Assembly: GCA_902635965.1 (NCBI GenBank)
Contig: CACPQA010000007.1
Location: 1-64,000 of the forward strand
Length of the DNA stretch: 64,000 nucleotides
Source of the DNA: an uncultured Bacteroidota bacterium
GTDB lineage: Bacteria; Bacteroidota; Bacteroidia; Flavobacteriales; Flavobacteriaceae
Direction of reading: 5' to 3'
Of the stretch, positions 46,611-64,000 are shown one piece after another; position 1 is the first letter of the stretch, and every line of letters begins with the position of its first letter. The notes below the pieces were generated by a model, which was not told the origin of the DNA, ran no database searches, and saw only the letters and a program-made list of their open reading frames with translations. The position numbers and the translations under genes are program-made.

Positions 46611-47924
46611 TTACTGAATATTCGGATTTGCTTGAATTTCAGAAATAGTTATTGGAAAAAATTCTCCTGGTGCTGTAGTAGCAATAGAAGTTGGGATCCA
46701 ATATTCTGAAGGACTAGCAAATCTGTAATGATCGGAAAGTCTCCTTCCCTGTAGAAATAAATTTACACGTCTAGTATGTAGAAGCATTGCCTGCGCATCA
46801 ATTTGTCCTGAATATGGAGTTAATCCATCCATTGCTCTAATATGGTTGATGTGGGTTGTAAAACCTGCATTATCACCACTAGCTAATGAATTTTCAGCTA
46901 AAATCAAATGCATCTCTCTACCAGTAGCAACAGGATATTCAGGAAAACGACCAGCATTAGTAAATGCTGCAACATGTCTGTATAGAGCTGGATCAGCAAT
47001 ATCATCTATAGGATCTTTTAGACTAATAGTGGTTGCAGGGTCACCATCATTAGGAGAATCTGGTCTTTTCAAATCTGTTGAAATTACATAAGTATTTGAA
47101 AGTCTCATCTCAAGTCTGTCATTAACCTCACCTGCGATATCTAAGGCTCCAATTGTTTCAGGAGCACTTGGATCCGTTATCAAGTTGACACTAAAATCCG
47201 TTCCAAGATCAGCTAAAGCAGCTGCAGCTAAATTGGCAGCATCTGCAGAAGAAACAAGTGGACTAGCTGTATTTACAGGATTAACTTTACCCCATATACC
47301 TTTCGCAAAAGTAGCTCTCGCTTTAAGTGCAGTTAACTCTCCTGTTAAACCCGCATTTAACGCTAGAGCAGCATTTATGTATCCTAAAGCAGTATCGTAA
47401 AGGGAACTCATATTTGATTCACCAACAGGGGGTGCAGCCTCTGTTTTAGCAGAACCAACCACGAAATCATCAAACATGTCAGCAATAACAATATAAATTA
47501 CTGCTCCATACATATAAGCTCTTGCTAAATCCGCTTTATTAGAAGCAGAAAAAGCATTTGAAGTACTAAACTCTAAACCTCTAGCAATTACATCGTCTGC
47601 CCAATAACGAGCTTCATTAACATAAAAATAGGCTCCATCAACGAATTCGTTTCCTATACCATCTAGGTTTCCAAAGTTAAGCTGCTGCCATGCATCTCTT
47701 GATCCTATCCAAATCATTTCATCTGATGCAACAGAATAAGGAGCCAAAATGTTTCCATATGCACGTATTAGTACACCTTCTAACCCGTTAACCATAGGAC
47801 CAAAAGCTCTAATATCTAGACCATCTTCAAGAAGGTTATTAGGGTTATCAGCATCAAGGCTACAATTATTGAATAGTAATACTGAAAAAACTATTCCAAA
47901 ATATTTTATTATATTATTTTTCAT
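46611..47924 (-). CDS. SusD/RagB family surface lipoprotein
   Basis: SusD-like proteins bind substrates on the outer face of the outer membrane and act as a lid on the SusC channel. The ATG at 47924 gives 437 aa and a signal ending at Cys21 (LLFNNC); an ATG at 47945 is also in frame. The protein is all-helical in style, with TPR-like segments and the C-terminal HTRRVNLFLQGRRLSDHYRF typical of the family. It follows the susC-like gene by 10 bases and is the last gene before the terminator. The substrate is unknown. Confidence 0.93.
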   Translation of the reverse strand: MKNNIIKYFGIVFSVLLFNNCSLDADNPNNLLEDGLDIRAFGPMVNGLEGVLIRAYGNILAPYSVASDEMIWIGSRDAWQQLNFGNLDGIGNEFVDGAYFYVNEARYWADDVIARGLEFSTSNAFSASNKADLARAYMYGAVIYIVIADMFDDFVVGSAKTEAAPPVGESNMSSLYDTALGYINAALALNAGLTGELTALKARATFAKGIWGKVNPVNTASPLVSSADAANLAAAALADLGTDFSVNLITDPSAPETIGALDIAGEVNDRLEMRLSNTYVISTDLKRPDSPNDGDPATTISLKDPIDDIADPALYRHVAAFTNAGRFPEYPVATGREMHLILAENSLASGDNAGFTTHINHIRAMDGLTPYSGQIDAQAMLLHTRRVNLFLQGRRLSDHYRFASPSEYWIPTSIATTAPGEFFPITISEIQANPNIQ

Positions 47925-47934
47925 AATTATTAAT

Positions 47935-50900
47935 TTAAAATCCAACTTTTAACGTTAACAATACCTGTGTAGGAATTGGCCATCCAAATGCAGCGATTCC
48001 CTGGCCGTAGTTTTGATCTAGGTTTGAACCACTCCCTCTTCCTACAAAATTTATTTCAGGGTCCACTCCTGTATAACTTGTGAATATCGCAATATTTCTT
48101 CCAGAAAGACCAATTGAAGCAGTATCTAATCTAAACTGATCAAGTATTGAACCTGTAATGTTGTAGTTTAAACTTAATTCTCTCCATCTAATAAAATCAG
48201 CCTTTTCCAAAGTGTTAAGACCTGAAAAAGGTGCTAAAGCGAGAGTATTATTTAACCACTCGTCTAATGCAGCAAGTCTCACGTTACCGTCCCCTTGTGG
48301 AGTAAATCCAGCGTCAACACCACCTGTAGCATAATCTCGTGCTACTTTAGCTGATCTTGGTAGATTTCTTCCAATTGCACCGTTTGCTTGTCTAAAAGCA
48401 TCAGTTAAGTTGTTTACCACAAAGTTTCCAGCTTTAAATTCAAAGGTGGTATTTAAAGTCCAATTTTTGTAGTTAACGGAACCTCCAAAAGCACCAGTCC
48501 AATCTGGAGTTGACTTTCCTAGATAATGATCAAGATAATCGCCATCCCCATCATCATCTGCCAAAAGAACAGATCCTGTACCAATTGAGGTTGGAAGGCT
48601 ATAGCTGCCATTTCCGGTTAAGAAAGCTACTAGCTGTTGTGTCGTATCAGGAAGTCCATCACCATTTGCAATATCAATAGGTAACGAACCTGAAGGTACG
48701 CTAGCTAATTGAGCTCCAAAATTTGCACCAGGTGCAAATCCTTCTTGTAAGAAATTTCTATATCTAGGATATGAACCACCAACTTTTAGTGGTGGCGCCC
48801 CGCCTAAACTTTTAACATTTTCTTGTAGATAAGCGGCGTTCACGTAAGCATTAACGGTTAAATCACCCTTTCTTATAATATTACCACTTAAATTGATTTC
48901 CATACCATTTGCTTCAAGTTCACCAACATTGGTTAACTGCTGGTTTCTAAAACCACCAGACAATGGGAACTGTCTAGCATAAAGTGCATCAGTAGTAATT
49001 CTGTCCCAATAAGTAAATTCTAAATTAAATTTATCACCAAATAAACCTGCGTTAAATCCAATTTCGAATTCTTTTGATACCTCAGGCTTAAGATCAGGAT
49101 CCCCTAAATTGTTTGGTGCTATTCCAGCTCCACTTGCAGATGCAAGTGCTAAATAAGAAGTAAATGCATCAAATGCTCCAGGTTGTAATCCGGCCATACC
49201 ATAAGCAGTTCTTAATTGTAGGGAACTTATTGGCCCTAAACCACTCCAACCGCTTGAATCAGAAGGTATATATGAAAGTGAAACTTTAGGGTAGAATTGA
49301 CCATTAAAGTTACTTCCAAAAGCAGAGTGAGCATCAAATCTAGCGCCAAGTGTTAAAAATAAGTAATCATTATATCCAATTTGTTCTTGAACAAAAGCCC
49401 CTACATTTATCGTCTCTACAAACTGCTCAAAGTTAACTTGCTGTGCAGCAGCACCAACAACCTCAAAACCAGGTCCTGGAAATTCGGTACCTTGACTACC
49501 TACTATCTTTTCTTGTTGCCCAACGTATTGTCCTCCGACGATTAAATTCGAAGTAAGTGATCCAAATTTGTTGTCCATTACTATTTTTACTTCAGCTGTT
49601 TTAGCCATATAATCTCTAGTTCCAACAGATAATTGACCAGTTGGTCTACTACCAGAAAAACCGTCTATGTTCCACTGAAATGGCCAAAAATCTTCACTAA
49701 CCTGGCCTGAGTAATCAATTCCAAAGGTACCATCTAGTTTAAGCCATTCTGTGGCATAGTAATTAAGACCTACACTACCGTTATAGTGATTAATTCTTGT
49801 GTTATAACCTAACTGTAAGGTTTCATCAACAGTAGCAAAAGCAATTACACCTGTTGTATTGCTTTCAGTAACCAATTCAGGCTTACTAAATTGAGCTAAT
49901 GAACCTGTACCATATATGTTGTTGTTGTTTTGAAGCGTTGTTTGATATCTAGAAGTAAAACCTGAAGTTAATCTAATATTAAACTTATCACTAGGGTTAA
50001 TATTTAAATTAATATTAAATTGTCCCATCTCATTAATATCTGAAGCGTTTGTTTTTTGTCCCTCAAGATATCCTTCTCTTTCTTTACCACCAACAGGGCC
50101 GTCAGAATATTGATACCTTGCAGATGCAAAATACGTCATAAACTCACTACCTCCAGATACATTTAGATTCACTATGTTATTGAAACCAGTTTCAAATAAG
50201 TCTTCAGTCGCATTAAAGCTTACAAGTTCATAAGGCGAAACTGATCTTCCAAGAACAGTACTCATTCTTGCTGCTGTAGCGGCACTCGATGTCCATCCTG
50301 TATTATCAGCGAATTTTCCCTTTGGAAAATTAATCCATCCTTGCGTTGCTTTAAAATTGAATTTTGGTGCTCCAATTTGACCTTTTTTAGTAAAGATTTG
50401 AATTACACCATTACTTGCTTCAGTTCCAAACAGCGTAGCTGCAGAGGCACCTTTTAAAATTTCTATTCTTTCGATTGATTCAGGATTTATATCATCGAGT
50501 CTTGAACCTGCTCCTCCACCGGAGTCAATGTAACCACCAAAACCACCACCTCTATCGACTCTAACTCCGTCAACAATGATGATTGGCTCGTTTAATTGAG
50601 AAAGTGAAGCATTTCCACGAATTCTAATTTGAGCACCTTCTCCATTTAATCCCCCAGAAGGAAATGCAACCAATCCTGGTTCTCTTCCTTGAAGGATATC
50701 AGAGAATGAATTAATAGGTAAATTTTCCAATTTAGCTGTAGAAATTGAACCAATACTGTTTCCTATTTTTTTTCTAGCAACTGGTGCTCCCGTACCTGTA
50801 ACAACTAATTCATCTAGCTTAGATGCCGAAAAAGTCATTGCAAAGTCATACGTGGCATCATCTCCTCCGACAGTAATTGTCTGAGAAATCCGCCCATAAC

Positions 50901-51147
50901 CGATGTAAGACAAGTCAATGGTATAATCGCCTGGCTCAACGTTATTTATTGTATAGTTACCATCAAAATCAGTAACTACTCCTTTGTTTGTATTTTTTAA
51001 TATAATTGTTACCCCTAATAATGGATCACCAGTTTCAGCATCTGTTACAGTTCCAGAAATAGACTGAGAAAATGCTGATAATGAAACAAATAGAAGAAAA
51101 AAAAGTGCTAAAAAATACTTTGATTTTTCTAAGATTAATTTTTTCAT
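47935..51147 (-). CDS. SusC/RagA family TonB-linked outer-membrane protein
   Basis: This 1070-aa receptor imports large or complex substrates with energy from TonB. It has a signal peptide (about 1-27, AFSQ), a carboxypeptidase-regulatory-like beta domain (about 29-108), a plug domain (about 110-250) with the SusC signature ERIEILKGASAATLFGTEAS, and the beta barrel. It ends in a barrel closing strand (TQVLLTLKVGF). It is intact, pairs with the SusD-like gene, and lies 90 bases after the haloperoxidase-like gene. It is rich in Gly, Ala and Ser codons compared with its neighbours. Confidence 0.96.
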   Translation of the reverse strand: MKKLILEKSKYFLALFFLLFVSLSAFSQSISGTVTDAETGDPLLGVTIILKNTNKGVVTDFDGNYTINNVEPGDYTIDLSYIGYGRISQTITVGGDDATYDFAMTFSASKLDELVVTGTGAPVARKKIGNSIGSISTAKLENLPINSFSDILQGREPGLVAFPSGGLNGEGAQIRIRGNASLSQLNEPIIIVDGVRVDRGGGFGGYIDSGGGAGSRLDDINPESIERIEILKGASAATLFGTEASNGVIQIFTKKGQIGAPKFNFKATQGWINFPKGKFADNTGWTSSAATAARMSTVLGRSVSPYELVSFNATEDLFETGFNNIVNLNVSGGSEFMTYFASARYQYSDGPVGGKEREGYLEGQKTNASDINEMGQFNINLNINPSDKFNIRLTSGFTSRYQTTLQNNNNIYGTGSLAQFSKPELVTESNTTGVIAFATVDETLQLGYNTRINHYNGSVGLNYYATEWLKLDGTFGIDYSGQVSEDFWPFQWNIDGFSGSRPTGQLSVGTRDYMAKTAEVKIVMDNKFGSLTSNLIVGGQYVGQQEKIVGSQGTEFPGPGFEVVGAAAQQVNFEQFVETINVGAFVQEQIGYNDYLFLTLGARFDAHSAFGSNFNGQFYPKVSLSYIPSDSSGWSGLGPISSLQLRTAYGMAGLQPGAFDAFTSYLALASASGAGIAPNNLGDPDLKPEVSKEFEIGFNAGLFGDKFNLEFTYWDRITTDALYARQFPLSGGFRNQQLTNVGELEANGMEINLSGNIIRKGDLTVNAYVNAAYLQENVKSLGGAPPLKVGGSYPRYRNFLQEGFAPGANFGAQLASVPSGSLPIDIANGDGLPDTTQQLVAFLTGNGSYSLPTSIGTGSVLLADDDGDGDYLDHYLGKSTPDWTGAFGGSVNYKNWTLNTTFEFKAGNFVVNNLTDAFRQANGAIGRNLPRSAKVARDYATGGVDAGFTPQGDGNVRLAALDEWLNNTLALAPFSGLNTLEKADFIRWRELSLNYNITGSILDQFRLDTASIGLSGRNIAIFTSYTGVDPEINFVGRGSGSNLDQNYGQGIAAFGWPIPTQVLLTLKVGF

Positions 51148-51237
51148 AACAGAGAATATTGTTAATTAAATGTTAATAAGTCGATAAATATAATGAAAAA
51201 CAAGGATATAAAAACAAATTTTTAAAAAAACAGGCTT

Positions 51238-52587
51238 TTAATTTGTTGCTAGTTTGTAAGAGTCTAGGTTAGTCTTGAGGTTCTCAGATATAAAATTCCC
51301 GACCTTTTCTCCCTGCGAAACTCCCTCTTCTACAGCCATTCTATAGTGTATACCACCATAAAGCCTTGAAATAGCCGCCTCTTCCGCAGCTTCAATAAAA
51401 GAATTATATTTTCTTGAAGGTAGACCGTATGCAACCTCAGTTGTATCGATAAATTTAAATTTATCGCCATACAAATTGGTGAGAGCTTTTGCTGCAGCAC
51501 GTGAAATTACTGAATGGCCGCTTGTGTACTCAGGGAATGGTGGAGTTTGTAAAAGAGGTAACCATTCTTCATCATAATGTTGATTAATTAAAGTTTCTGG
51601 TCTAACCAATATAGACCTCCACTTTTCATCCCAGCAACTTATAAAAGAGTCAAACAATGAAATCGAAACATTGACATAAGCATTTACTACTTCGTCAAAA
51701 GTACTGTTAGCTGTCCTACCCGCAATAGCTGTAATACCAATCCAGTGTCCGCCAGGGGTGATTTTTTTTGTCGCAAACATTGCATGCCCTCTGTGATGTG
51801 TAACATAGGGGTTACAATCCCAAAATTTTGCAATCTGAATCTTTTCAGGGTCCATTTTATTGCCTATCTCATATACTTCTTGAAGCTGTTTTTGAAAAGG
51901 ACTACCTTTTGTTAAATCAAATTTCAAAGGTTCTTTTGGAACAAATTGATTTGCTGAGTCTATAACAAGTGTTCTTATTTTATTCCAGTGGGGCTCAATT
52001 CCATCCATGTAGTCTGGTGGTGTAGGTTTCCAGAAAACTTCCTCTTCCAAAATTGTGTATTTGGGAAATGTTCTAGTTTGATTGTATAGATCGTTCTTTG
52101 CCCAATCCAAAATATGATTAGCAACTTTCTCAGCGTACTTTTTAGATGCCATTCTAATGTTTCTTGGGACACCAATTGAATTTAACTTATCATTTAATCT
52201 TTTTTCAAACTTTTCCATCAATTCGTCCGAAAAAATGAGGCTCTTACCTACTTTATTAAATGCATACAAAATAGTTAAGTTTAAGTTGTAATTTTTGAAA
52301 TCCTTTTCTGGTTCGGGAATTGGTTTAAGGTCTTTGACCTGTCCTACCAAAGATTTGTATTTCAAAGGCATATTTTTTGCCATTAATTCGTAAGCCGCAA
52401 TTGAGGGATATAGATAAACTCTAGAAGCTACAGGTGGAGAAAAAATATCATATACAATAACATCAGATAAATTCTGCATCGCTGAGTGAAAAAGTGATGC
52501 ATCTTTAAGTTTATTTGGATCGAACCTTTTGTTTTCACAACCAAAAATGATAACTGAAAATATTAAATATAAAAGTATTTTTTTCAT
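51238..52587 (-). CDS. vanadium-dependent haloperoxidase-like lipoprotein (PAP2 superfamily)
   Basis: The 449-aa protein has a lipoprotein signal (Cys17 in IIFGC). The C-terminal half carries the vanadate/phosphate site: Lys322-x6-Arg329-Pro330, Ser356-Gly357-His358 (motif TSGH in place of PSGH) and Arg408-x5-His414, the last being the expected vanadium ligand. Phe351 falls where fungal chloroperoxidase has Phe397 and algal bromoperoxidases have His. So it could oxidise halides, or be an acid phosphatase-like relative. It is next to the SusC/SusD pair, with 90- and 92-base gaps on its two sides. Confidence 0.85.
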   Translation of the reverse strand: MKKILLYLIFSVIIFGCENKRFDPNKLKDASLFHSAMQNLSDVIVYDIFSPPVASRVYLYPSIAAYELMAKNMPLKYKSLVGQVKDLKPIPEPEKDFKNYNLNLTILYAFNKVGKSLIFSDELMEKFEKRLNDKLNSIGVPRNIRMASKKYAEKVANHILDWAKNDLYNQTRTFPKYTILEEEVFWKPTPPDYMDGIEPHWNKIRTLVIDSANQFVPKEPLKFDLTKGSPFQKQLQEVYEIGNKMDPEKIQIAKFWDCNPYVTHHRGHAMFATKKITPGGHWIGITAIAGRTANSTFDEVVNAYVNVSISLFDSFISCWDEKWRSILVRPETLINQHYDEEWLPLLQTPPFPEYTSGHSVISRAAAKALTNLYGDKFKFIDTTEVAYGLPSRKYNSFIEAAEEAAISRLYGGIHYRMAVEEGVSQGEKVGNFISENLKTNLDSYKLATN

Positions 52588-52679
52588 AAACAGACTGTAA
52601 ATTTAATCAAACTAATTTTTTTGTAGAGTTAAAAAACAATCTGTTTTACTTATAAACTATAATTCAAATGAAAAATAAA

Positions 52680-54032
52680 CTAGCTTCCACCAATAAGTTT
52701 AAGTTTTTCTTCTTTGCTATTAAATTCTTCTACTTCACTTCTAGATATGCTTGTTCCCCATACATATGCCCTCTTTAAGTTCTTAAATTTTTTCAGGACT
52801 TCAATAGATTTACTCGTAATTCTTGTGTTATGAATATTAAGTATTTCAAGATTATCGAGTGATTGGAGGATTTTAATGCTTTCGTCATCAATATTATTAT
52901 TTTGAATTTCAAGTTTTACTAAGTTTTCAAAACTAGATATACCTTTAATTAATTCATTGGAAAGATTAGAAGATTTTGCAGTGAAATAAGCAATATTTCG
53001 TCTAACCTTTTCAAGTTTTTCAATGTCAGAAATATTTACATTTTTCTTTAAGTATTTCACAGAAAGGAATTTCTTGTCGTCTGAAATATACTTTATTTGA
53101 AATAGATTGTTATCAATATTTTGAACCAAAGACTCGTCTAATTTTTCAATCAAAAGTTTTTCAAACCATTGTTTTTCAGTAAAGTTCAAGCTGTAAAGCA
53201 TTTCAAGGGATTCTTTAATATCATCGTCAACTTTTAACGAGGCTAAAATTTCATTTGATTTGTCCAGATTATTAATCCACCAAATCAAAGTCTTAATTTC
53301 ATCAAAGGATACCGGCTCACCATCAGGAGGCATATATTTAAGTTCACTTGTTGGCATAGTAATTCTTTTTATCAACAAGCTTTTTCTGGGCTCAGATTTA
53401 TTAATTGGATTTCCACTACTTCCGCCCTTTAAAAGATTACTATAGGAATCCATATTTAGATTTCCCCTAGATATTTCTTTGTTGTGGCAAGAAACACATT
53501 TTTGATTAAAAATTGGTTGTATAAGATCATCATAAACTTTAACAGAGTCAATTTCTAATTCTACATATTTATTTTTTTTAATAACCAACTCTTTAATGTT
53601 TTCAGGAGCGTAATCCACAAGGTATGTTTCACCATGTGTCAAATTTCCACCATAATGACCAGTTAAAGTCAAAAGAACAATTATTGCAGTGTTTGACAAT
53701 GTCTTTAATGAAGAAGAAAATAAATTTGAAAAAATAGATAACCTTAAAAACCAAGATATAAATGAGATGGCGGTTAAAGACAAACCAAAAATTTTATGCA
53801 TAAATAAATTTTCATCTATATAATGGCCGGTTTCTGCGATTAAAAGTCCCAAGATTGTTGTTAAGACTGAGGAAAAGAAAGCAACAAACCAAGTAAAATT
53901 AATTATGCTCTGATTAATTCTTATTTTAAAAATGGAGCAATAAATTTCGATTAAAATAGCTAAGATCAAAAATCCAATTGGCAAGTGAACTAGCAACGGG
54001 TGAAATCTACCTAGAAAGAAAATAGCTTCCAA
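52680..54032 (-). CDS. DUF2231 membrane protein fused to c-type haem motif and leucine-rich repeats
   Basis: The 450-aa protein has several membrane helices in the N-terminal 130 residues, starting FLGRFHPLLVHLPIGFLILA, typical of DUF2231. A c-type haem motif (Cys179-x2-Cys182-His183 in QKCVSCHNKE) follows in a planctomycete-type cytochrome segment, with MPP near residue 235 as a possible sixth ligand region. The last 100 residues contain leucine-rich repeats (LDNLEILNIHNTRITSKSIEVLKK). The haem faces the periplasm. It starts 10 bases after the stop of the NHL-type gene. Confidence 0.85.
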   Translation of the reverse strand: MEAIFFLGRFHPLLVHLPIGFLILAILIEIYCSIFKIRINQSIINFTWFVAFFSSVLTTILGLLIAETGHYIDENLFMHKIFGLSLTAISFISWFLRLSIFSNLFSSSLKTLSNTAIIVLLTLTGHYGGNLTHGETYLVDYAPENIKELVIKKNKYVELEIDSVKVYDDLIQPIFNQKCVSCHNKEISRGNLNMDSYSNLLKGGSSGNPINKSEPRKSLLIKRITMPTSELKYMPPDGEPVSFDEIKTLIWWINNLDKSNEILASLKVDDDIKESLEMLYSLNFTEKQWFEKLLIEKLDESLVQNIDNNLFQIKYISDDKKFLSVKYLKKNVNISDIEKLEKVRRNIAYFTAKSSNLSNELIKGISSFENLVKLEIQNNNIDDESIKILQSLDNLEILNIHNTRITSKSIEVLKKFKNLKRAYVWGTSISRSEVEEFNSKEEKLKLIGGS

Positions 54033-54042
54033 AAGAAAAAGT

Positions 54043-55098
54043 TTATACTCTATTTAATTTTAAAGGAGTTGTTCTCCCAGAGTTCCATTGAGGAACATAA
54101 ATATTTTCATCATCATCTATACAAACGTCGTGTGGATTAAGGAAACTACGATCATCATAAACAGGTTTATTAATTATTCCATTTTTATATGATGGTTTAC
54201 CTCCTCCTGGGAGTGATACTACTTTATTATTTTTATCTAAAACTGCAATCATTCCGTCATAGTTCCACCAATTGTAGGTGTTAATAATAGCAAAATAAAG
54301 ATTGTCTCCTTTAATAACCGGTCTACACATCCAATAACCAGGTAGGGAAACAGTTTCTAAATGTTTTCCACCCAAGGTAAATCTTTTGAATTCATTTTTT
54401 GTTCTAGATGAAATAAGTAGAGTTGGATTTTGATTAAATCGGCTATCCAGTGTTATCCCATGACAACAATCAAAGTGATTTTTACCACTCCCTTTACCTC
54501 CAAAATGTCCTAAATAATTTCCTTTTTGGTCATATTTTATAATAAAATCTTTACCATAACCGTCTGCAACATAAATATCACCGTTAGGTGCAATCGCTGT
54601 CTCAGTTGGCTTGAAATCGTCCTGTGAAGAATATTCCTTAATTTCTTTTGGGTAAAAAATTTCGAGAATTAATTTTCCATTTAAGTCAGTTTTACAAACC
54701 CTATGCAAGTCCGGATCAGTAATGTATAAAAATTCAGTACCACCTTCATTACTTAATGTCAAACCATGGGCACCATTAAAACCTACACTCCATCCATCTA
54801 AAACCTTTCCATCATTGTTATAGACCAAAATATTGTTTTTTTTATGAGTTGTTGTCATAAACAATCTTCCCTTTTTATCCATAACCATTTCATGACAATG
54901 GTGAACTGGATGAATATTGACATTTTGTTTACTCCAGCGTTTATCAACTTTATAGGTAAATCCGTTATGTCCAACTGTATTTTCTAATGATTTGCTTTTA
55001 TTTGCAATTGAGAATGTTTTATCAGCTGAAGCAATACCTAGCCCAACAATAGCTGAATTTCTTAAAAAATTTCTTCTTGAATTATTATTTTTTTTCAT
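54043..55098 (-). CDS. Tat-exported six-bladed beta-propeller protein (NHL-like)
   Basis: The 351-aa protein has a twin-arginine signal (SRRNFLRN at 7-14) and then repeated strands of the NHL/SMP-30-like propeller type: GRLFMTTTHKKNNILVYNNDGKVLDGW, NGDIYVADGYGKDFIIKYDQKGNYLGHFGG, and ENIYVPQWNSGRTTPLKL. A HPVHHCHEM cluster near residue 63 and DCCHGIT may bind metal. Similar proteins include peptidylamidoglycolate lyase-like domains, but assignment is uncertain. Its start overlaps the DUF1501 stop by four bases. Confidence 0.85.
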   Translation of the reverse strand: MKKNNNSRRNFLRNSAIVGLGIASADKTFSIANKSKSLENTVGHNGFTYKVDKRWSKQNVNIHPVHHCHEMVMDKKGRLFMTTTHKKNNILVYNNDGKVLDGWSVGFNGAHGLTLSNEGGTEFLYITDPDLHRVCKTDLNGKLILEIFYPKEIKEYSSQDDFKPTETAIAPNGDIYVADGYGKDFIIKYDQKGNYLGHFGGKGSGKNHFDCCHGITLDSRFNQNPTLLISSRTKNEFKRFTLGGKHLETVSLPGYWMCRPVIKGDNLYFAIINTYNWWNYDGMIAVLDKNNKVVSLPGGGKPSYKNGIINKPVYDDRSFLNPHDVCIDDDENIYVPQWNSGRTTPLKLNRV

Positions 55099-56552
55099 AC
55101 AAGTATATCATTTACAATTTTTCCGTGAACATCGGTTAATCTGTATCTCCTACCCTGGTGTTTGAATGTTAATCTTTCGTGATCGAGACCTAAAAGATGT
55201 AGAATTGTAGCTTGAAAATCATGAACATGCACCGGGTTTTCTCTTAAATTATAGCCAAATTCATCAGTTGCCCCATAGGTAATACCTTTTTTAACACCAG
55301 CCCCAGCCATAAAAATAGTAAAACATCTAGGATGATGATCCCTACCATAACCAGGATCTAGAATGTTTCCTTGAGTATAGTTTGTCCTTCCAAATTCTCC
55401 ACCCCAAATCACCAGTGTATCTTCTAAAAGACCCCTTTGTTTTAGATCCATAATAAGTGCGGCAGATGGCTGATCAGTATCCTTACATTGTATTTTTAAT
55501 TCTTTATTTAAATTTCCATGATGGTCCCATCCTTGGTGATAAAGTTGAACAAATTTGACATCCTTTTCGATTAGCTTTCTTGCGAGTAAACAGTTAGCAG
55601 CAAATGTTCCAGGGTTTTTACTATCTTCTCCATACATGTCAAAAATATAGTCTGGTTCGTTAGAAACGTCCATAACTTCAGGGACAGAGGTCTGCATTCT
55701 GTAGGCCATTTCATATTGAGACATCCTAGATAAAATCTCAGGATCACCTATGTCTCGGTAATTATCGTCTTCTAGTTTCTTTAAATATTCTAATTGTTCC
55801 CTTCTTAAATCACCTGTAACACCTGGGGGATTTTGTAAATAAAGAACAGCATCTTTTCCAGATCTAAATTGAACACCTTGGTATTTTGATGGTAAAAATC
55901 CATTACCCCAAGAACGGGCATAGAGTGGTTGACCTTGTTTATCTTTTGTAACTAGTACAACAAACTCAGGTAAATTTTTATTATCGGAACCTAAACCATA
56001 ACTAATCCATGATCCCATAGAGGGTCTTCCAGGTAGGTTTGAACCTGTTTGAATAAACGTAACAGCCGGATCATGATTGATTTCTTCTGTGTACATCGAC
56101 TTTACAAAACATAGTTCATCGACAATTTTTGATGTATATGGCATTAACTCACTGACCCAAGCTCCACTTTGACCATATTGTTTAAAATCATAAATAGATG
56201 AAACTAAAGGAAAAGATGCCTGACCCGCACTCATACCTGTCAGTCTTTGTCCACCTCTTACGCTGGGGGGAAGTTCTTTACCGTGCATCTTTGTAAGAAG
56301 AGGTTTGTGATCGAAAAGATCAATCTGGGAGGGCGCACCACTTTGAAATAAATATATTATTCTTTTTGCCTTTGCTGGAAAATGAGGTAATTGTGGAGGA
56401 AGAGTTGTATTATTGAGATTTGAAATACCGTCAAAAGCTCTGGCAGGACTTATTAAGGAACCCAGAGTAAGAGCACCAAGTCCAAGTGAAGTTTTAGTTA
56501 AAAAATCCCTCCTAGAAAACTTTTCGTTATGATGATGGTGATTACAATTCAT
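55095..56552 (-). CDS. DUF1501 family protein, Tat-exported (alkaline-phosphatase-like fold)
   Basis: The 485-aa protein opens with a His cluster, then a Tat signal with SRRDFLTK at residues 13-20. The DUF1501 family is related to sulfatases and phosphatases; visible motifs include SGAPSQIDLFDHKP, LVIWGGEFGRTNYTQG and GRDHHPRCFTIFMAGAGV, in which the Asp, Glu and His residues could bind metal. The function of the family is unproven. It lies between the DUF1553 gene (8 bases) and the propeller gene (overlap of four), a combination first noted in planctomycetes. Confidence 0.92.
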   Translation of the reverse strand: MNCNHHHHNEKFSRRDFLTKTSLGLGALTLGSLISPARAFDGISNLNNTTLPPQLPHFPAKAKRIIYLFQSGAPSQIDLFDHKPLLTKMHGKELPPSVRGGQRLTGMSAGQASFPLVSSIYDFKQYGQSGAWVSELMPYTSKIVDELCFVKSMYTEEINHDPAVTFIQTGSNLPGRPSMGSWISYGLGSDNKNLPEFVVLVTKDKQGQPLYARSWGNGFLPSKYQGVQFRSGKDAVLYLQNPPGVTGDLRREQLEYLKKLEDDNYRDIGDPEILSRMSQYEMAYRMQTSVPEVMDVSNEPDYIFDMYGEDSKNPGTFAANCLLARKLIEKDVKFVQLYHQGWDHHGNLNKELKIQCKDTDQPSAALIMDLKQRGLLEDTLVIWGGEFGRTNYTQGNILDPGYGRDHHPRCFTIFMAGAGVKKGITYGATDEFGYNLRENPVHVHDFQATILHLLGLDHERLTFKHQGRRYRLTDVHGKIVNDILV

Positions 56553-56560
56553 ATTTTGAT

Positions 56561-59500
56561 TTATCTTTTCATATAAACTTCATCATGGTTGAGCATTACA
56601 TTTGCTACCATGGAAAGTGCTGCGGTTTTATATAAATTTAAGGTTTTATCTCTAGGTTTTTTTCCATTTTTAAAAATATTGTATGCAAGTTTAGGGTTTT
56701 GCTTGAATTTTTTAAGCTGATCGTCATATAATTTTCTAAGTAATTCTATTTCCTTATCTCTAGGTTTTCTTGAGGTGCATAGACGGAAACCATGCTTTAT
56801 TGATTCATCAATAGAGGAAGGCTTTTCCTTTTGAATCCTCTCTGCAAGAATTCTTGATGCCTCGACAAATTGAGGATCATTCAATAAAACAAGTGCCTGC
56901 AGAGGTGTGTTGGTTATTTCTCTTTTTACTGTACAAACCTCTCTTGTTGGTGCATCAAAAGTAGACATAGAAGGAGGTGGGTTTGTTCGTCTTATAAATG
57001 TGTACATGCTTCTTCGATATAAACTATCACCAGTTGACTCTTTGTAATTTAAAAGTTTAATTGAAAAATTAGATTTTTCTTTCCATAGACCTTTGGGCTG
57101 ATACGGTTTAACACTTTTTCCACCAACATGTTTTACAAGTAACCCGCTAGCTGCTAATGCATTGTCTCTGATCATTTCAGCTGGAAGTCGGTAACTGTTA
57201 CTTCTAGATAGGAGTATATTGTCGGGATCAATTTCGACTTGCTTTTGACTTGGTTTAGAAGATTGCATGTAGGAGTGTGATGTTACCATTAATCTTAGTA
57301 AATCCCTGATATCCCAATCCTTTTCCATGAAATAGTTGGATAGATATTCAAGTAAATTAGGATGTGATGGAAGTTGTCCTTGAACCCCAAAGTCACCAGG
57401 AGTATTTACAATACCCCTGCCAAAAATCATTTGCCAATACCTGTTGACTGCAACTCTAGCAGTCAATGGATTTTTCTTATCGAATATCCATTTGGATAGA
57501 CCCAGTCTGTTTTTGGGCATTTCAGCAGACATTTTGGGAAGTTTAGACGGAACATCTGCCTCAACTTCATAACTAGGTGATTGGTAACTTCCTCTGTCAT
57601 AAAGAAAAGTCTTTCTTTTATCTTTCATCTCCTCCATGACCATAATCGTCTTGACATCAGAGATGTTTTTTAGCCACTGTTTTTTTAAATTTTGAATTTG
57701 ATTTTTAATTTTTTTTGTGGATATGTCATTGTAAACTAAATGCTCAACTTTATCTACATCATCTAAAAGCTTTTCGTCTATGTTGTATGCATTGTATAAA
57801 TTTTTTAATTCATAAGAACTTATTGATTTGTTAAAAATAAATAGTTCGTCCATTAAGCCTTCGACCCAACCATTATCTCCCGAGGAAAAATCTCCTGATG
57901 CTCCAATTTTGAGTGCTTGTTCTTGAAGGTAAATTCCGCTACTTGAAACGGGTAGTATTGATTTTTTTAAATTGTCAAAAACTACTTTTTTATTAATTTT
58001 TTCACCATTTAAGAATAAATTAATACCTGAAGAGTTTCCACTACCGTCATATGAAAAAGCTATGTGATACCAGTTGTTTACTTTCAAGGAGTCAACTGAT
58101 TTAACATGAATGGCGTCACCAGGTAGAGAACTAACAAGCCTTAGATTCAAATAATTTTTATCATCTAGGATTAAATCCCATCCTCTCCACCAAGAGTTTT
58201 TTCCACCGGTAGTAGTAAGTAAACTCTGGGTAAAACCTTTTTTTCTTTTTATAGTTTTAAACCAAAAAGCTCCAGAAAATGAATCTGTCCACTCAAAGTT
58301 TGGGACCTTTTCAACAAATACTTGATTACTGCCATCGAATTCCAATGCATTACCTTGTATGCCTTTTTTAAGCTTTTGATTAGTGTAAGAAGTGATATCT
58401 CGACTATTGTCAATAATATAATCTGTTTCACGCCCAAAAGAACCTTGAACTATAATTGTTTTATCATCACTTATTACTTTCTGTTTAATTATTTTATCAA
58501 AAGAAACTTTTTCAATTATATTTTTTTTGGATACAGCGCTAGATTCAAAATTTGAAAGCTTATCTGCGTATTTATAAAAATTATTTAATTCGGATATCTT
58601 AGCACTTAACTCCTTCTGCTTGGCATCAATTGCAACTTCTAATTTGTTCAATTTTTTTTCAGTTTTCTGATCAGGTAGAAAAAGTAAGGGTCCAAAATCT
58701 CCATCATCGCCAGTCATTCCAATTTCTCTAGTTTGGTTAAAAAATGCTGATAGTTGATAATAATCTTTTTGAGAAATTGGATCAAATTTGTGATCATGAC
58801 ACTTTGCACACATAAGTGTTAGTCCCATTACGGCTGTACCTAAAGTTTCTGTTCTATCGAAAACGTAATTCAAACGCCACTCTTCATCAATGACACCTCC
58901 CTCGGCTGTCATGGGATTATTTCTATTAAATGCGGTAGCCAATTTCTCTTCTTTGGTAGCGTTTTCTCTCATATCACCGCTGAGTTGAACAGAAACAAAT
59001 TCATCGTAAGGTGTATTGTTTTTAAATGCTTTTATTACCCAATCTCTCCAAGGCCACATAGTCCTTATGCCATCTGCATGAAGCCCGTGAGAATCAGCGT
59101 ACCTAGAAACATCTAACCAATCCATCGTTAATCTTTCTGCATGCTCATCACTTTCGAGGAGTCTATTTACAACATTTAAGTATGTATTTTTGTCGTTTGA
59201 CTTAACAAAAGATTCAACCTCATCAATTGAGGGAGGTAAACCGGTCAAATCGAAATATAACCTTCTAATTAATTTTTCTTTAGAAGAGATAGGAGAAAAC
59301 TCCAGTCCCTTTGTTTTAAGTTTTTTTGAAATAAAATAATCAATTGGATTTTTATATTGATCTGATGATGAGCTTGATACATGTTGTATTGGTAAAAAAG
59401 ACCAATGTTCTTTCCACTCTGCTCCTTGTTCAATCCATTTTAAAAGGATTGCTTTTTCGGTATTTGTCAAACTTAAATTAGATTCAGGAGTTGGCATTAC

Positions 59501-59815
59501 TTCATCGGGATCATTTGATAAAATTCTGTGGGCCATTTCACTGCCGCTAATACTTCCGGGATCTATAGCCGTTCTTCCACTAGATAATTTCATAAATGCA
59601 GTCTTTTCTTGATCTAACCTAAGTCCAGCTCTTCTTGATTTTTCGTCAGGTCCATGGCAAGAGTAACATCTATCGGAAAGTATTGGTTTTACATGATAAT
59701 TGAAATCAACTTTTTCTGGAATTTGGTCATATTTAACCTCAACCTCTTTGGGTACTGTAAGTGTACATCCATATAAAAGAAGGAGCAAAATAAAAGTTAA
59801 ATATCTCATACCCAT
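56561..59815 (-). CDS. PSCyt1/DUF1549/LamG/DUF1553 multidomain lipoprotein
   Basis: This 1084-aa exported protein has a lipobox at Cys17 (LLYGC). Domains in order: a planctomycete cytochrome-type segment with Cys50-x2-Cys53-His54; DUF1549 (about 155-360), which contains a second haem-type motif Cys336-x2-Cys339-His340; a LamG-like jellyroll (about 490-690); and DUF1553 (about 785-1070). Two c-type haem motifs imply electron transfer in the periplasm. The target could be a glycan bound by the LamG part. It is the first gene after a 161-base gap with its own -7 box. Confidence 0.92.
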   Translation of the reverse strand: MGMRYLTFILLLLLYGCTLTVPKEVEVKYDQIPEKVDFNYHVKPILSDRCYSCHGPDEKSRRAGLRLDQEKTAFMKLSSGRTAIDPGSISGSEMAHRILSNDPDEVMPTPESNLSLTNTEKAILLKWIEQGAEWKEHWSFLPIQHVSSSSSDQYKNPIDYFISKKLKTKGLEFSPISSKEKLIRRLYFDLTGLPPSIDEVESFVKSNDKNTYLNVVNRLLESDEHAERLTMDWLDVSRYADSHGLHADGIRTMWPWRDWVIKAFKNNTPYDEFVSVQLSGDMRENATKEEKLATAFNRNNPMTAEGGVIDEEWRLNYVFDRTETLGTAVMGLTLMCAKCHDHKFDPISQKDYYQLSAFFNQTREIGMTGDDGDFGPLLFLPDQKTEKKLNKLEVAIDAKQKELSAKISELNNFYKYADKLSNFESSAVSKKNIIEKVSFDKIIKQKVISDDKTIIVQGSFGRETDYIIDNSRDITSYTNQKLKKGIQGNALEFDGSNQVFVEKVPNFEWTDSFSGAFWFKTIKRKKGFTQSLLTTTGGKNSWWRGWDLILDDKNYLNLRLVSSLPGDAIHVKSVDSLKVNNWYHIAFSYDGSGNSSGINLFLNGEKINKKVVFDNLKKSILPVSSSGIYLQEQALKIGASGDFSSGDNGWVEGLMDELFIFNKSISSYELKNLYNAYNIDEKLLDDVDKVEHLVYNDISTKKIKNQIQNLKKQWLKNISDVKTIMVMEEMKDKRKTFLYDRGSYQSPSYEVEADVPSKLPKMSAEMPKNRLGLSKWIFDKKNPLTARVAVNRYWQMIFGRGIVNTPGDFGVQGQLPSHPNLLEYLSNYFMEKDWDIRDLLRLMVTSHSYMQSSKPSQKQVEIDPDNILLSRSNSYRLPAEMIRDNALAASGLLVKHVGGKSVKPYQPKGLWKEKSNFSIKLLNYKESTGDSLYRRSMYTFIRRTNPPPSMSTFDAPTREVCTVKREITNTPLQALVLLNDPQFVEASRILAERIQKEKPSSIDESIKHGFRLCTSRKPRDKEIELLRKLYDDQLKKFKQNPKLAYNIFKNGKKPRDKTLNLYKTAALSMVANVMLNHDEVYMKR

Positions 59816-59976
59816 TAATGAAAAGCTAATTTACTAAAAAACACACATTTATCTACGTTTTCAAATCTATTGACTAAGTCCAATGAATTTTCATGATTGC
59901 AATAACTTAACACTATATGTTATTTGTTTTACTTATTAAAAAAATTTTTCTTATAATTAAAATCATACTACGAGAT
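59816..59976. other. 161-base intergenic gap with possible promoter
   Basis: This AT-rich gap separates the FG-GAP pair from the DUF1553 operon. On the minus strand TAGATTTG at 59869-59862 matches TAnnTTTG and would start the DUF1553 transcript about 40 bases before its ATG. No TTG at the right spacing and no terminator hairpin were seen. Confidence 0.4.
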
Positions 59977-62900
59977 TTATTTTAGGGAAGCAGCTTTCAA
60001 AGAATATATGTAATCATTATTTGAAAATATCAATTGGTTGTCATCAAAATCTAAAATAGCTCTATAATCTTTACTAATTGGTAAGGGAAGGTTTTTTGTA
60101 TTTTTAAAATACATTTTTTCTGTATCTAAATCCAATAATAATCCCCCAGGATTAGCACTAGAAAATCCAAGTTCAGTAACATATTTACTAAAATTACCTA
60201 CATAAATTAAATCATTTGAATTTTTAAAAAATTTAAAATCCTCAATGCAACTAAGTTGTGCTGAAGGAGGTAAAGCATATTTTTTAAAGCTTCCTTCTTT
60301 ATTTATAAAAATTGAAGATTCAAGATCATAAATATATTTTATCTCAAGAATATCGTTTTCCCCCTTACCTGTTAGAGATTTAATATCTTTAATTTTTGAA
60401 AAATTATTATAATTAGGAAACTTCTTTTTTAAAAAAGGTAGCTGTTTATCTAGTTTATCTTTTGATGAAAAAGGGACATATTTTCCAAAAAAATCATAAA
60501 ATATGATTGGGTCCGGTTGCTGGTTCCCATCGAAGTCATCAAGGTATAATTTTACAGGTTTTTTAATTGAAGGCTTCCATTTAAAGTTTGTCCCAGCATT
60601 TCCAGCAATTATGTCAATCTTGCCGTCTTCATTGAAATCCTTTATATCAACTACATTCCATAATCCATTTGTTCCAGAGAGTCCATACTCAAAAGTTTTA
60701 TTTATAAATTTAAAATCATCTTCCTGAATTAAAACAGTTATTGGCATCCAATCACCGACTAAAACAATGTCCTCTTTTCCATCGGAGTTAATGTCAACCC
60801 ATTTACTGTCTGTCACCATTCCATATCTTTGTTGCTGAACTGGTGATAACGTATTATCTTTGTTATTTACCAAAAAAAAGCTGTAAGGACTTAGTCCATA
60901 AAAACCAGTAATTGACCTTGATCCTACAAACAAGTCATCATAGCCATCATTATTAAAATCGGAGACTGAAACTGATGAACCGTTGGTCCTTGGGAGAAAG
61001 ATTTTAAGACGTGTGAAATTCCCCAAACCATCATTTAAATAGACACGATCCATATAATTTTTGTCTAATTCTTTATACTCGTTTCCGCCACTTACAACAT
61101 AAAGGTCAAGGTCCCCATCATTGTCTATATCAAAAGCTGCCGCGTCTGTATCTTCAAATTTATTATCCTTTTGTAAATCAAAATTTTTAACCTCGTCAAA
61201 ACCTTTATTTTTTGTAGAAAGAAAAACTCTACCTCTTTGGAATTTCGCACCCCCCATAAAAAAATCTTCAAGACCATCATTATTAAAGTCTGCTTTAACA
61301 ACTGCTGGACCTTCAAATGACAATCTTTCAGGAATTAACCTTTCTTTCTGATAATCATAATACTCAGTTTCTTCATGTTTAATCGGAAGATAACTTACAT
61401 TTAATTTAGTTGGTTTTTTAATTTTGATATCAACTTCATCTTCAAAATTATAGTCCCCTTTAGAGATGGATACACTTTGATTAGTATCCGTGATTATCTT
61501 TCTTTCTTTATGCCCATCTGGCCATCTTATAATTAAGGAGTCAATTTTTTTGTTTTCTCCCAAACCAAAAAAAACATTATGTGAAGAAGAGGACTGAAAC
61601 CCTCTAGTTGTGATATTTTCCTTAACAAGTTTATTACCATTTACATATAGTTCAATTCTCGATCCCTTTGTTACGGGATATTTAGAATTTCCAGCTAGTT
61701 TTATAGAAATAAAGTTTGATTTTTCAGTTAAATTTTCAAGAATGGTAGCCTCAGAATTCAAATTATTTAAAATGATATCTAAATCTCCATCAAGATCTAA
61801 GTCTGCGTATGCAGCACCATTGCTATAAGAGGGTACACCTGTATTAGATGAATTTACTTTTTCAAAATTTAAATCTCCATTATTCTTAAATAAAATATTT
61901 GGAATTTTAAGAGTTGGCATCTTATCAATAAGGTTTTTCTTGAGTACATCCTGCCTTGAGTTATTGTACTCTGTAAAGTCTACATTGCTTAAGTAATTAA
62001 TGTAATCTAAATCATTGGGTCGTTTAAGTATACCATTGGATATAAAAATATCTTCTTTACCGTCAGAATCAAAATCTTGTAACAAAACGCCCCAACTCCA
62101 GTCTGTTGCATGTGTATTGGTTTGAATCGCAACATCATAAAAAGTATTGTTACCACTATTAATTTGCATATGGTTTCTTGAAAATTGCTGTTCAAATCCT
62201 AAATCTTTTTTAATTCTTGATATTTTATCCAAATCCTCACCACCAGATTTCAAAAAGATTTTTGGATCGTATGGCATCATATCTGTTGTAAAAACATCTA
62301 GCTTTCCATCCTGATTTAAATCGGCAACATCAACTCCCATTGTGAAATGAGATGTATGACTCATTGACTTTTTTATTGACTCAGTAAATGTTTTGTCTTT
62401 ATTATTTATGTATATATAATCGTTTTCATGAAAATCATTCCCAACATAAAGGTCTAACCAGCCGTCATTGTTAAAATCAGTTGAAGTTAGAGCTAGTCCG
62501 TAACCCAGGGGGCTATCATAAATCTTCGACTCTTTAGTGACATCTATGAACTTTTTATCTTTTTCGTTTAATCTATTTTCAAAGAACTTGTCACCAGATA
62601 ATTCATCCGATTCTCTTCTTTTTTTTGAGCTCCCGTAGCTTCTTACAGTATGAATTGCATGGTTCATTAAATAAATGTCTAAGTCTCCATCTTTATCGTA
62701 ATCCAAAAATGTAGAATGGGTTGAAAAACCAGAAAAATCTAATCCCAATTGAGAAGAACTTTCTGTGAAAGTCATGTTTTTATTATTGATGTAAAGTAAA
62801 TTATGTGTTCCTTTTGGACTAAGAGGACTGACTTTGCAAACATATATATCTAAATACCCATCATTGTTTACATCCTCAAAGCTAACTCCATTAGACCACG

Positions 62901-63246
62901 ACACATCGGTTTTGATTCCTGATTTTAAGGTGATATCTTGAAATTTTAAATTCCCCAAGTTTAGATATAACCGGTCAGAGACTTGATTTCCTGAAAAATA
63001 AATATCCTCTAATCCGTCGTTATTTATATCTCCGATTGCCACACCTCCACCGTTATAATAGTACAAATACTCAATAATATTAACTTTCGTTTTATACGTG
63101 AGTTTATTTTTAAAATTTATTCCCGTATCTAAGTAATTTAATGTCCTAAATTTTATAGTACTTTCATCCTTCTTGTCTAACTTATTACAAAAAAGCATTA
63201 ATAAAAAAGAAGCTATTAAGAGTATATTTGATTTTTCTTTGATCAC
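59977..63246 (-). CDS. FG-GAP/VCBS repeat protein with ASPIC/UnbV domain (lipoprotein)
   Basis: The 1089-aa protein has a lipobox at Cys20 (LLMLFC). It is filled with FG-GAP-type repeats, each with a DxNxDGxxD calcium-binding loop, such as GDINNDGLEDIYFSG, DVNNDGYLDIYV and DFNNDGWLDLYVG; together they should form beta-propellers. An ASPIC/UnbV domain lies at about 502-585 (SRIELYVNGNKLVKENITTRGFQS). The family resembles animal CRTAC1. It is likely surface-exposed and adhesive or substrate-binding. It begins seven bases after the stop of a paralogue upstream. Confidence 0.92.
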   Translation of the reverse strand: MIKEKSNILLIASFLLMLFCNKLDKKDESTIKFRTLNYLDTGINFKNKLTYKTKVNIIEYLYYYNGGGVAIGDINNDGLEDIYFSGNQVSDRLYLNLGNLKFQDITLKSGIKTDVSWSNGVSFEDVNNDGYLDIYVCKVSPLSPKGTHNLLYINNKNMTFTESSSQLGLDFSGFSTHSTFLDYDKDGDLDIYLMNHAIHTVRSYGSSKKRRESDELSGDKFFENRLNEKDKKFIDVTKESKIYDSPLGYGLALTSTDFNNDGWLDLYVGNDFHENDYIYINNKDKTFTESIKKSMSHTSHFTMGVDVADLNQDGKLDVFTTDMMPYDPKIFLKSGGEDLDKISRIKKDLGFEQQFSRNHMQINSGNNTFYDVAIQTNTHATDWSWGVLLQDFDSDGKEDIFISNGILKRPNDLDYINYLSNVDFTEYNNSRQDVLKKNLIDKMPTLKIPNILFKNNGDLNFEKVNSSNTGVPSYSNGAAYADLDLDGDLDIILNNLNSEATILENLTEKSNFISIKLAGNSKYPVTKGSRIELYVNGNKLVKENITTRGFQSSSSHNVFFGLGENKKIDSLIIRWPDGHKERKIITDTNQSVSISKGDYNFEDEVDIKIKKPTKLNVSYLPIKHEETEYYDYQKERLIPERLSFEGPAVVKADFNNDGLEDFFMGGAKFQRGRVFLSTKNKGFDEVKNFDLQKDNKFEDTDAAAFDIDNDGDLDLYVVSGGNEYKELDKNYMDRVYLNDGLGNFTRLKIFLPRTNGSSVSVSDFNNDGYDDLFVGSRSITGFYGLSPYSFFLVNNKDNTLSPVQQQRYGMVTDSKWVDINSDGKEDIVLVGDWMPITVLIQEDDFKFINKTFEYGLSGTNGLWNVVDIKDFNEDGKIDIIAGNAGTNFKWKPSIKKPVKLYLDDFDGNQQPDPIIFYDFFGKYVPFSSKDKLDKQLPFLKKKFPNYNNFSKIKDIKSLTGKGENDILEIKYIYDLESSIFINKEGSFKKYALPPSAQLSCIEDFKFFKNSNDLIYVGNFSKYVTELGFSSANPGGLLLDLDTEKMYFKNTKNLPLPISKDYRAILDFDDNQLIFSNNDYIYSLKAASLK

Positions 63247-63253
63247 AATAATT

Positions 63254-64000
63254 TTAAAATTTAAATACCTCTATCTTGTCATTATTTTTAGAAACAAAAA
63301 CATTCTTATCAGATATTAAAATATCTCTAATTTCTCCTTTCACAAAGAAACCTTTTCCATCTCGGTGATATTTAAACTTCAAATTACCAAGATTTTCTAG
63401 GTATAATCCAAAAGAAGCATCGTAAATACCAATTTCTGGTTTTACGTCATATAAATTGCCTCCTAGTAAAATATCTTTATCTCCATCATTGTCAAAATCG
63501 TAACTATTAATTGAATAAACTGGACTAAATTGTGTTTCTTTTGGAATACTTATTTTCTCAAATTCAAATCCCTCCTTTTTTATGTATATTGAAGTCTCTA
63601 ATGTATTAACAATATGGATATCAGATTGGTTAAGAATTTTTTGATCAAAAATCTTGGTTATATCTGCCGTTTTAAATGATTCATAATCGGGGAATTTTTT
63701 CTTTAAGCTTTTAATCTGATCAATCAAATCATGACGTAAGGCGTAAGGGTAATCTTTTCCGTTTTCGGCTTCAAAACAAATTATTCCTTCTCCAAAGCCA
63801 TTTTTATCAAAATCATTATAATATAACCTTAGAGGTTTAGACTTGCTCGCATTAAATCTTGAATTTAAACCATGATTACCAACGATCAAATCATTTTTAC
63901 CATCATTATTTAAATCTGTAATGTGAATTTCGTTCCACCACCCTTTCTCATCTAAAAGTTTATTTTCAATTCGGACGAATTGTGACCCTTCATTTTTAAA
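63254..64000 (-). CDS. FG-GAP repeat protein, C-terminal part (5' end outside window)
   Basis: The frame is open to base 64000 and continues beyond the window, so 248 residues of the C-terminus are visible. They align with the C-terminus of the following gene product: a DLNNDGKNDLIVGNHG repeat, KPLRLYYNDFDKNGFGE, the KKFPDYESF segment that recurs as KKFPNYNNF in the neighbour, and a final FDNDGDKDILLGGN repeat. The two are tandem paralogues. A start within the window (TTG at 63889) is not believable because conserved coding continues upstream. Confidence 0.88.
   Translation of the reverse strand, partial: FKNEGSQFVRIENKLLDEKGWWNEIHITDLNNDGKNDLIVGNHGLNSRFNASKSKPLRLYYNDFDKNGFGEGIICFEAENGKDYPYALRHDLIDQIKSLKKKFPDYESFKTADITKIFDQKILNQSDIHIVNTLETSIYIKKEGFEFEKISIPKETQFSPVYSINSYDFDNDGDKDILLGGNLYDVKPEIGIYDASFGLYLENLGNLKFKYHRDGKGFFVKGEIRDILISDKNVFVSKNNDKIEVFKF

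Follow-up and report, generated by a model that had tools for sequence, protein, structure and literature searches.

Within a 64,000-nucleotide stretch of DNA from an uncultured flavobacterium (positions 1-64,000 of contig CACPQA010000007.1, here C7, which is 83,309 bases long; the stretch is called the window), the genes from 46611 to 64000 belong to a minus-strand block that we read as a composite locus, made of two modules, for using a sugar or sugar conjugate. Module A comprises a SusC/SusD pair, three FG-GAP/UnbV propeller proteins, and a haloperoxidase, and module B is a planctomycete-type cytochrome cassette made up of a PSD1 protein, a DUF1501 protein, a propeller protein, and a membrane cytochrome. 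By its gene content the block is a composite of the two, and the reading as a whole, whose substrate and reactions are deduced from sequence, has in our judgment a probability of roughly 0.52. It is carried by the architecture of the block, a gene order conserved in the genus, the modularity of related loci, a recurrent association of FG-GAP/UnbV propellers with haloperoxidases, and the sugar-related genes that neighbor related loci.

Results

A composite block on one strand

Pfam scans and strand assignments bear out the original prediction of nine minus-strand genes and their domains between 46611 and 64000, and the heme, Tat (twin-arginine translocation), and lipobox-like motifs are as it described them. 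The block does not end at 64000, however, as had been supposed: the window edge runs through the topmost FG-GAP gene, and reading on past 64,000 along C7 we find that the block continues for about 11 kb on the same strand, to contig position 75061. Following transcription, its upper part runs from a SusC gene identified by SusC matches (contig 72080-75061) through a SusD gene with SusD-type PDB matches (contig 70430-72079), FG-GAP/UnbV propeller protein c (contig 67072-70332, with its UnbV domain at contig 68575), a small lipoprotein of 201 residues without a Pfam match (contig 66510-67115), and propeller protein b, a putative lipoprotein (63254-64000, the gene reaching contig 66526; UnbV at contig 64778), to propeller protein a (59977-63246), in which the lipobox pattern is unmatched.

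The lower part continues with a PSCyt1-PSCyt2-LamG-PSD1 (DUF1549/DUF1553) putative lipoprotein with two heme c motifs (56561-59815), a DUF1501 protein with a twin-arginine signal (55095-56552; DUF1501 at 536 bits), a propeller protein of NHL/DUF5128 type with a twin-arginine motif (54043-55098), a monoheme membrane cytochrome that combines DUF2231 and PSCyt1 with weak leucine-rich-repeat matches (52680-54032), the haloperoxidase, a putative lipoprotein (51238-52587), a second SusC-type TonB-dependent transporter (47935-51147), and a SusD-like protein (46611-47945). The SusC member of this predicted SusC/SusD pair is firm (TIGR04056, 498 bits against a cut-off of 368, with SusC/RagA matches in the PDB), whereas the SusD-like protein is a divergent, weak match that, at 21 bits, falls just under the Pfam SusD_RagB cut-off of 23.1. 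With that reservation, the block holds two of the tandem SusC/SusD pairs by which a polysaccharide utilization locus is recognized.

Intergenic gaps within the window measure, from the top down, 7, 161, 8, -4, 10, 92, 90, and -11 bases, the last becoming about +10 if the SusD-like gene starts at the ATG seven codons downstream. Spacing is small inside subgroups, with 161, 92, and 90 bases between them, and the widest gap (59816-59976) marks the junction of the FG-GAP genes with the cytochrome cassette. Four terminator-like sites were found on the minus strand between 46000 and 64000, all of them inside genes, and the promoter and terminator scans yielded results near chance level. The lower end of the block is followed by a plus-strand gene that ends at 46566.

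Haloperoxidases and their propeller partners

The enzyme originally called haloperoxidase-like can be assigned more sharply to the type of the solved vanadium haloperoxidase 4cit, which it matches with an E value of 9.4e-143 across residues 1-439 of 449; by sequence it is a homolog of vanadium haloperoxidase over its full length. We take 4cit and 4usz to be the iodoperoxidase of Zobellia galactanivorans. The protein carries a lipobox-like cysteine and the motifs K322..RP330, SGH 356-358, and R408..H414, whose residues are invariant across the 18 homologous sequences aligned. Because the pattern KxxxxxxRP, SGH, RxxxxxH is common to vanadium haloperoxidases and PAP2 phosphatases, these residues do not separate the two families.

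Of 397 genomes sampled from the family, 180 encode homologs of the enzyme at E ≤ 1e-20. Forty haloperoxidase neighborhoods were read in these genomes and another 80 in named records, the latter being the best 80 of at least 585 confirmed candidates. Setting aside L116 and L117, which belong to the window's genus, and removing two duplicates left 116 unique loci for the upstream, neighbor, and trehalase counts, with 110 of them offering at least 1.5 kb of upstream sequence and serving for the upstream counts. In 59 of these 110 loci the gene immediately upstream, on the same strand, is of FG-GAP type, and 78 have an FG-GAP gene somewhere on that strand; because the loci are related and were picked by similarity, such counts express recurrence and not probability. 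For comparison, a control set of 32 PSD1 loci (25 from other genera and 7 copies of other type within the window's genus) gave, on either strand, one FG-GAP match and 7 with SusC/D, making the FG-GAP contrast between the two sets of sequences a strong one. Further cases of module A come from records with the titles Flavobacteriaceae, Cyclobacteriaceae, Flammeovirgaceae, and Saprospiraceae. In the culturable Cellulophaga tyrosinoxydans DSM 21164, the locus (L137) reads FG-small-FG-FG-haloperoxidase.

The source genome (1.77 Mb in 39 contigs, 85% complete) contains a second locus of this kind on contig C6, and all five UnbV domains found in the genome fall within these two loci. The C6 locus (L227:2273-18830, about 6272-22829 on C6) reads SusC, SusD, two FG-GAP/UnbV proteins, a glycoside hydrolase of family 20 (GH20), and a 641-residue protein of VCPO type (L227:12206-14131), which has VCPO-type domains, the three motifs, and part-length similarity to vanadium haloperoxidases of solved structure (best E 1.4e-10); genes of MGH1-like, GH20, and GH109-like families face it. 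Four more genomes of the genus keep the order SusC-SusD-FG-FG-GH20-VCPO (L250-L253), the MGH1-like gene not being seen in L253. Each of the two haloperoxidase loci in the genome has a gene of the Pfam Beta-lactamase family immediately past SusC (L002:11279-12508, L227:759-2003).

In other genera, FG-GAP repeats and UnbV are followed within one protein by the same VCPO-type domain, with a type IX secretion system (T9SS) sorting domain as the tail, an architecture established by Pfam on two proteins (L235:1-3624 and L234:1231-4857). Counting by hand the matches that span query residue ≤94 to ≥1195, with at most two candidates scored per genome, we found at least 52 fusion proteins in at least 47 of the 397 genomes, one of the matches having an internal stop. 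These sequences lend good support to a partnership between FG-GAP/UnbV propellers and haloperoxidases, and its tie to SusC/SusD appears to hold for part of the cases.

Junction of the two modules

Conserved gene order had been set beforehand as the check on a single system, and it passed because the order is kept in the genus and the linkage of SusC/SusD-FG-GAP genes with the cassette returns in two further genera. In the lower part, the genes for DUF1501, the propeller, the membrane cytochrome, and the haloperoxidase are contiguous in seven of seven genomes of the genus and are followed by SusC or its start; upstream, the order SusC-SusD-FG-small-FG-FG-PSD1 was found in all four genomes with contigs reaching that far. 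The SusC start in G002 (L036:812-3815) is joined to unrelated genes, by deletion or misassembly, and the genes abutting it are presumably cell-division or cell-wall genes.

The first of the further genera, g119 (G139 and G341), has SusC-SusD-FG-small-FG-FG running into PSD1-DUF1501-propeller-cytochrome, with FG-GAP b split across two frames in G341, and its haloperoxidase lies with an MFS-like gene upstream, divergent and beyond SusC. In the second, g105 (G125 and G333), another SusC-SusD-FG set precedes a PSD1 that belongs to the same clade, and a GH16 gene (L205:13288-14187) sits between the FG-GAP gene and PSD1, identified by Pfam in G125 and in G333 as a counterpart of equal length with a near-identical start. 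The last gene of the window-type FG-GAP cluster in G333 encodes an MGH1-like glycoside hydrolase and shares 4 bases with FG-GAP a. In a tree of 23 hand-chosen PSD1 proteins, from which the G004, G006, and G341 copies were omitted as partial or split, the eight SusC/SusD-linked PSD1s, drawn from three genera, form one clade with support of 100/100; a single origin of the linkage, later rearranged, would fit.

The cytochrome cassette

The window PSD1 protein carries PSCyt1, PSCyt2, and PSD1 domains with an inserted Laminin_G_3, CxxCH motifs at residues 50 and 336, and a lipobox-like cysteine, uniting PSCyt and PSD domains in one heme-motif protein. The membrane cytochrome has a single CxxCH (CVSCH, residue 179), and SRRxFL twin-arginine motifs are present in the DUF1501 and propeller proteins. 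PSD1 homologs at E ≤ 1e-100 occur in 101 of the 397 genomes. DUF1501 comes next after PSD1 in 31 of the 32 control loci, the exception being a PSD1 gene at a contig start with no same-strand gene listed, and in 19 of them the membrane cytochrome follows, either at once or behind the propeller. The lone control locus with a haloperoxidase (L071/L114 in G030, of another genus) shows a short-type cytochrome cassette converging on the haloperoxidase gene about 40 bases away.

Regular expressions called sulfatase-motif genes in 6 of the 25 cassette loci from other genera, compared with 2 out of 40 and 2 out of 78 in the haloperoxidase loci, an enrichment that is suggestive. Other cassette neighbors are GH109-like oxidoreductases (L211, L212), a GH20 gene (L207), and an esterase-family gene (L216). 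A di-heme cytochrome c peroxidase (CCP_MauG) stands directly behind the cassette in L049 (L049:13030-14232) and, by motif, in L050; the L049 protein is a possible redox partner of the cassette. DUF1501 genes (L196-L200) and PSD1 genes (L197, L199, and L200, the last two being one contig) also lie on contigs classed as viral in IMG/VR and are either virus-borne or misassigned.

Pfam still labels DUF1501, DUF1549, and DUF1553 as families of unknown function. In sequence and profile searches of the PDB, the best matches to DUF1501 (E 0.063 and 0.19) were too weak to be usable, and those to PSD1 were confined to its LamG and heme regions, with no usable relative for its core. A possible sulfatase-like fold of DUF1501 was not used as evidence.

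Sugar-related genes around haloperoxidase loci

A same-strand gene follows within 300 bases in 84 of the 105 haloperoxidase loci with room downstream, a count that still includes the two duplicates. Twenty of the 84 were dropped from the Pfam scan: three FG-GAP proteins, one haloperoxidase, one duplicate, ten proteins of about 755 residues that we take to be malic enzyme, and five others. The 64 scanned matched MFS_1 (19), MFS sugar transporter (9), trehalase (6), MGH1-like (6), FGGY kinase (6), SSF symporter (6), GyrI-like (5), GH97 (1), and other families, and the counts may overlap within one protein, trehalase and MGH1-like both matching in the four trehalases checked singly.

Trehalase motifs were found in 12 of the 116 unique haloperoxidase loci versus none in the control set. 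The gene lies immediately behind the haloperoxidase, at a spacing of -3 to 295 bases, in L149, L151, L156, L157, L158, and L175 (called by motif only in L157 and L175), and a trehalase-motif protein comes a few genes later in L079, L096, L099, L132, and L139. A count of 32 from a trehalase profile of our own was rejected, as the profile mixed trehalases with symporters; Pfam and motifs were used instead. Elsewhere, the genes adjoining haloperoxidase loci encode MFS permeases, trehalases, GH97 proteins, and carbohydrate kinases. Among haloperoxidase loci, 7 of 40 and 5 of 78 show a xylose-isomerase motif, accompanied where checked (L100) by xylulokinase-family and symporter genes, and in genus g119 a LacI regulator is placed before SusC and divergent from it. 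Together, these neighbors point to sugars or glycosides, without naming one.

Discussion

For the composite locus we infer the substrate, reactions, electron flow, and cell location of each protein as follows. Module A would capture a sugar-containing substrate at the cell surface and import it, with the propellers holding the substrate, the haloperoxidase, or both. Using H2O2 and halide, the haloperoxidase may oxidize or halogenate the substrate, or it may clear peroxide around it. Module B, with its diheme PSD1 protein, the DUF1501 and propeller proteins with their Tat signals, and the DUF2231 cytochrome, would then oxidize the imported material in the periplasm, electrons passing from the PSD1 hemes to the membrane cytochrome and on to the respiratory chain. 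Import of another ligand or of a product is the probable task of the second SusC/SusD-like pair, which follows the haloperoxidase.

A bolder version of this scheme, which we consider doubtful, supposes a class of loci for oxidative sugar use in Bacteroidota: hypohalous acid from propeller-tethered surface haloperoxidases would break or loosen glycans, SusC/SusD would import the fragments, and in this lineage the cassette would complete their periplasmic oxidation and hand the electrons to respiration. Glycans might be attacked by N-halogenation of their N-acetylhexosamines, as for the C6 locus with its GH20 gene. Hypochlorous acid (HOCl) fragments glycosaminoglycans, according to the available text of PMC10006533, and hypohalous attack on glycans is therefore chemically reasonable, above all at the GH20-linked locus.

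Other explanations must be weighed against the composite locus. The block could be two unrelated operons, a haloperoxidase/SusCD operon and a cytochrome cassette, that have become neighbors in a few genera and share no substrate; the modules indeed lie apart in most loci read, the 161-base gap sits at their junction, and the g119 haloperoxidase lies across SusC in divergent orientation. Yet the junction is kept in all four testable genomes of the genus and in both of g119, and the same-clade PSD1 behind a different SusCD-FG-GAP set in g105 disfavors chance adjacency, and we regard unrelated operons as unlikely. The enzyme might also be misnamed. The vanadium haloperoxidase fold is common to acid phosphatases, Pfam reports a PAP2 superfamily match, and the next genes of related loci include permeases and carbohydrate kinases, all as expected of a PAP2-type phosphatase that removes phosphate from a sugar phosphate ahead of uptake. 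The full-length match to a solved haloperoxidase (E 9.4e-143) makes this highly improbable.

A haloperoxidase with a defensive role is a possibility that we take more seriously, although we think it too falls short of likely. Such an enzyme would clear H2O2 and turn over iodide or bromide near algae, its linkage to uptake genes reflecting that both are needed on algal surfaces. Its homology to 4cit and the fusion loci, most of which lack adjoining SusCD where read, are in keeping with this role, and the available text of PMC9296495 describes one Zobellia iodoperoxidase gene, vIPO3, as induced on Ascophyllum nodosum compared with alginate, an induction that fits a defensive role equally well. 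The recurrent linkage to FG-GAP/UnbV proteins, extending to single-protein fusions, and the linkage with trehalases and permeases point instead to a role in uptake.

Several observations weigh against the composite sugar-use locus itself. The modules are apart in most loci read and joined in few genera, and the cassette mostly occurs without module A (among the 32 control loci, FG-GAP in 1, haloperoxidase in 1, and any SusC/D in 7). Same-strand SusC or SusD genes were seen in 40 of the 110 haloperoxidase loci, many stretches ending short of the SusC position, and the SusC/D contrast with the control sequences is weak; 32 of the 110 have no same-strand FG-GAP gene in the stretch examined, and all these counts come from mutually related, similarity-picked loci and are not independent. 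SusC-like genes lie upstream in two of the eight fusion loci read, both in G025 (L238, L242), and are missing from the other six, one of which stops at a contig end; four unfused VCPO-type loci of other genera gave no SusC or FG-GAP match. Neither the nine window genes (by Pfam) nor the small gene include a glycoside hydrolase, lyase, or other carbohydrate-active enzyme (CAZyme) family, none of the sugar-related neighbors, trehalase included, is in the window block, and the C6 locus, with its MGH1-like gene, supplies the sole trehalase-family match in the source genome. Separated by gaps of 90-161 bases, the subgroups of the block may or may not share a transcript, and structure prediction was unusable (predicted local distance difference test score, pLDDT, 34.7 for DUF1501 from 5 sequences and 35.2 for PSD1 from 4, one partial). 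The original idea of a single redox import system consequently stands in part: the conserved order supports it, and surface capture, import, and periplasmic redox chemistry suit the parts, but the modules are separable.

Like a polysaccharide utilization locus, the window block has SusC/SusD pairs and surface-type lipoproteins on one strand, and homologous loci, though not the block itself, add a LacI regulator, permeases, and glycoside hydrolases. The CAZymes expected of such a locus are absent from the block and present in the homologous L205, L210, and L079. The surface proteins of the block differ in being FG-GAP/UnbV propellers, and a haloperoxidase and cytochromes take the places of the enzymes. 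The original judgment that this is not an ordinary polysaccharide locus holds for the window, where there is no glycoside hydrolase, but is weakened by the GH16 gene of the sister locus L205, the MGH1-like gene of L210, and the sugar-gene neighbors elsewhere.

The cassette resembles the PSCyt/PSD genes that He et al. (2017) described in Verrucomicrobia (PMC5615132), in which PSCyt and PSD domains share one protein, some with carbohydrate-binding domains such as Laminin_G_3, beside a conserved unknown family that is probably DUF1501, although the main text does not name it. The text available to us calls the functions of these genes wholly unknown and proposes a carbohydrate role (PMC5615132). 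The window cassette differs in lying outside the Planctomycetes-Verrucomicrobia-Chlamydiae (PVC) phyla, in including a membrane cytochrome with DUF2231 as well as a propeller, and in being joined to SusCD, FG-GAP, and haloperoxidase genes. The window haloperoxidase, in turn, is like 4cit/4usz in full-length homology and motifs, a comparison at the protein level, and sits in a SusCD-FG-GAP-cytochrome block. The literature searched, which leaves most subscription papers outside, yielded no paper combining haloperoxidase with SusD and FG-GAP, and the passages in it that pair haloperoxidase with "polysaccharide utilization" do not describe such a locus. The block joins two known modules, a haloperoxidase-bearing surface uptake system and a cytochrome cassette of unassigned function.

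The joined modules suggest that some bacteria may process sugars by oxidation besides using cutting enzymes, an idea that is now testable. The tie of one PSD1 clade to SusCD and FG-GAP genes, and in one genus to GH16, likewise gives a testable form to the carbohydrate proposal of He et al. More broadly, the linkage described here, the second enzyme type, and the frequent fusions suggest that FG-GAP/UnbV propellers are common working partners of the haloperoxidases of this phylum, part of which would also work with nutrient uptake. If the oxidative sugar-use reading were true, it would provide a first concrete role for DUF1501, DUF1549, and DUF1553.

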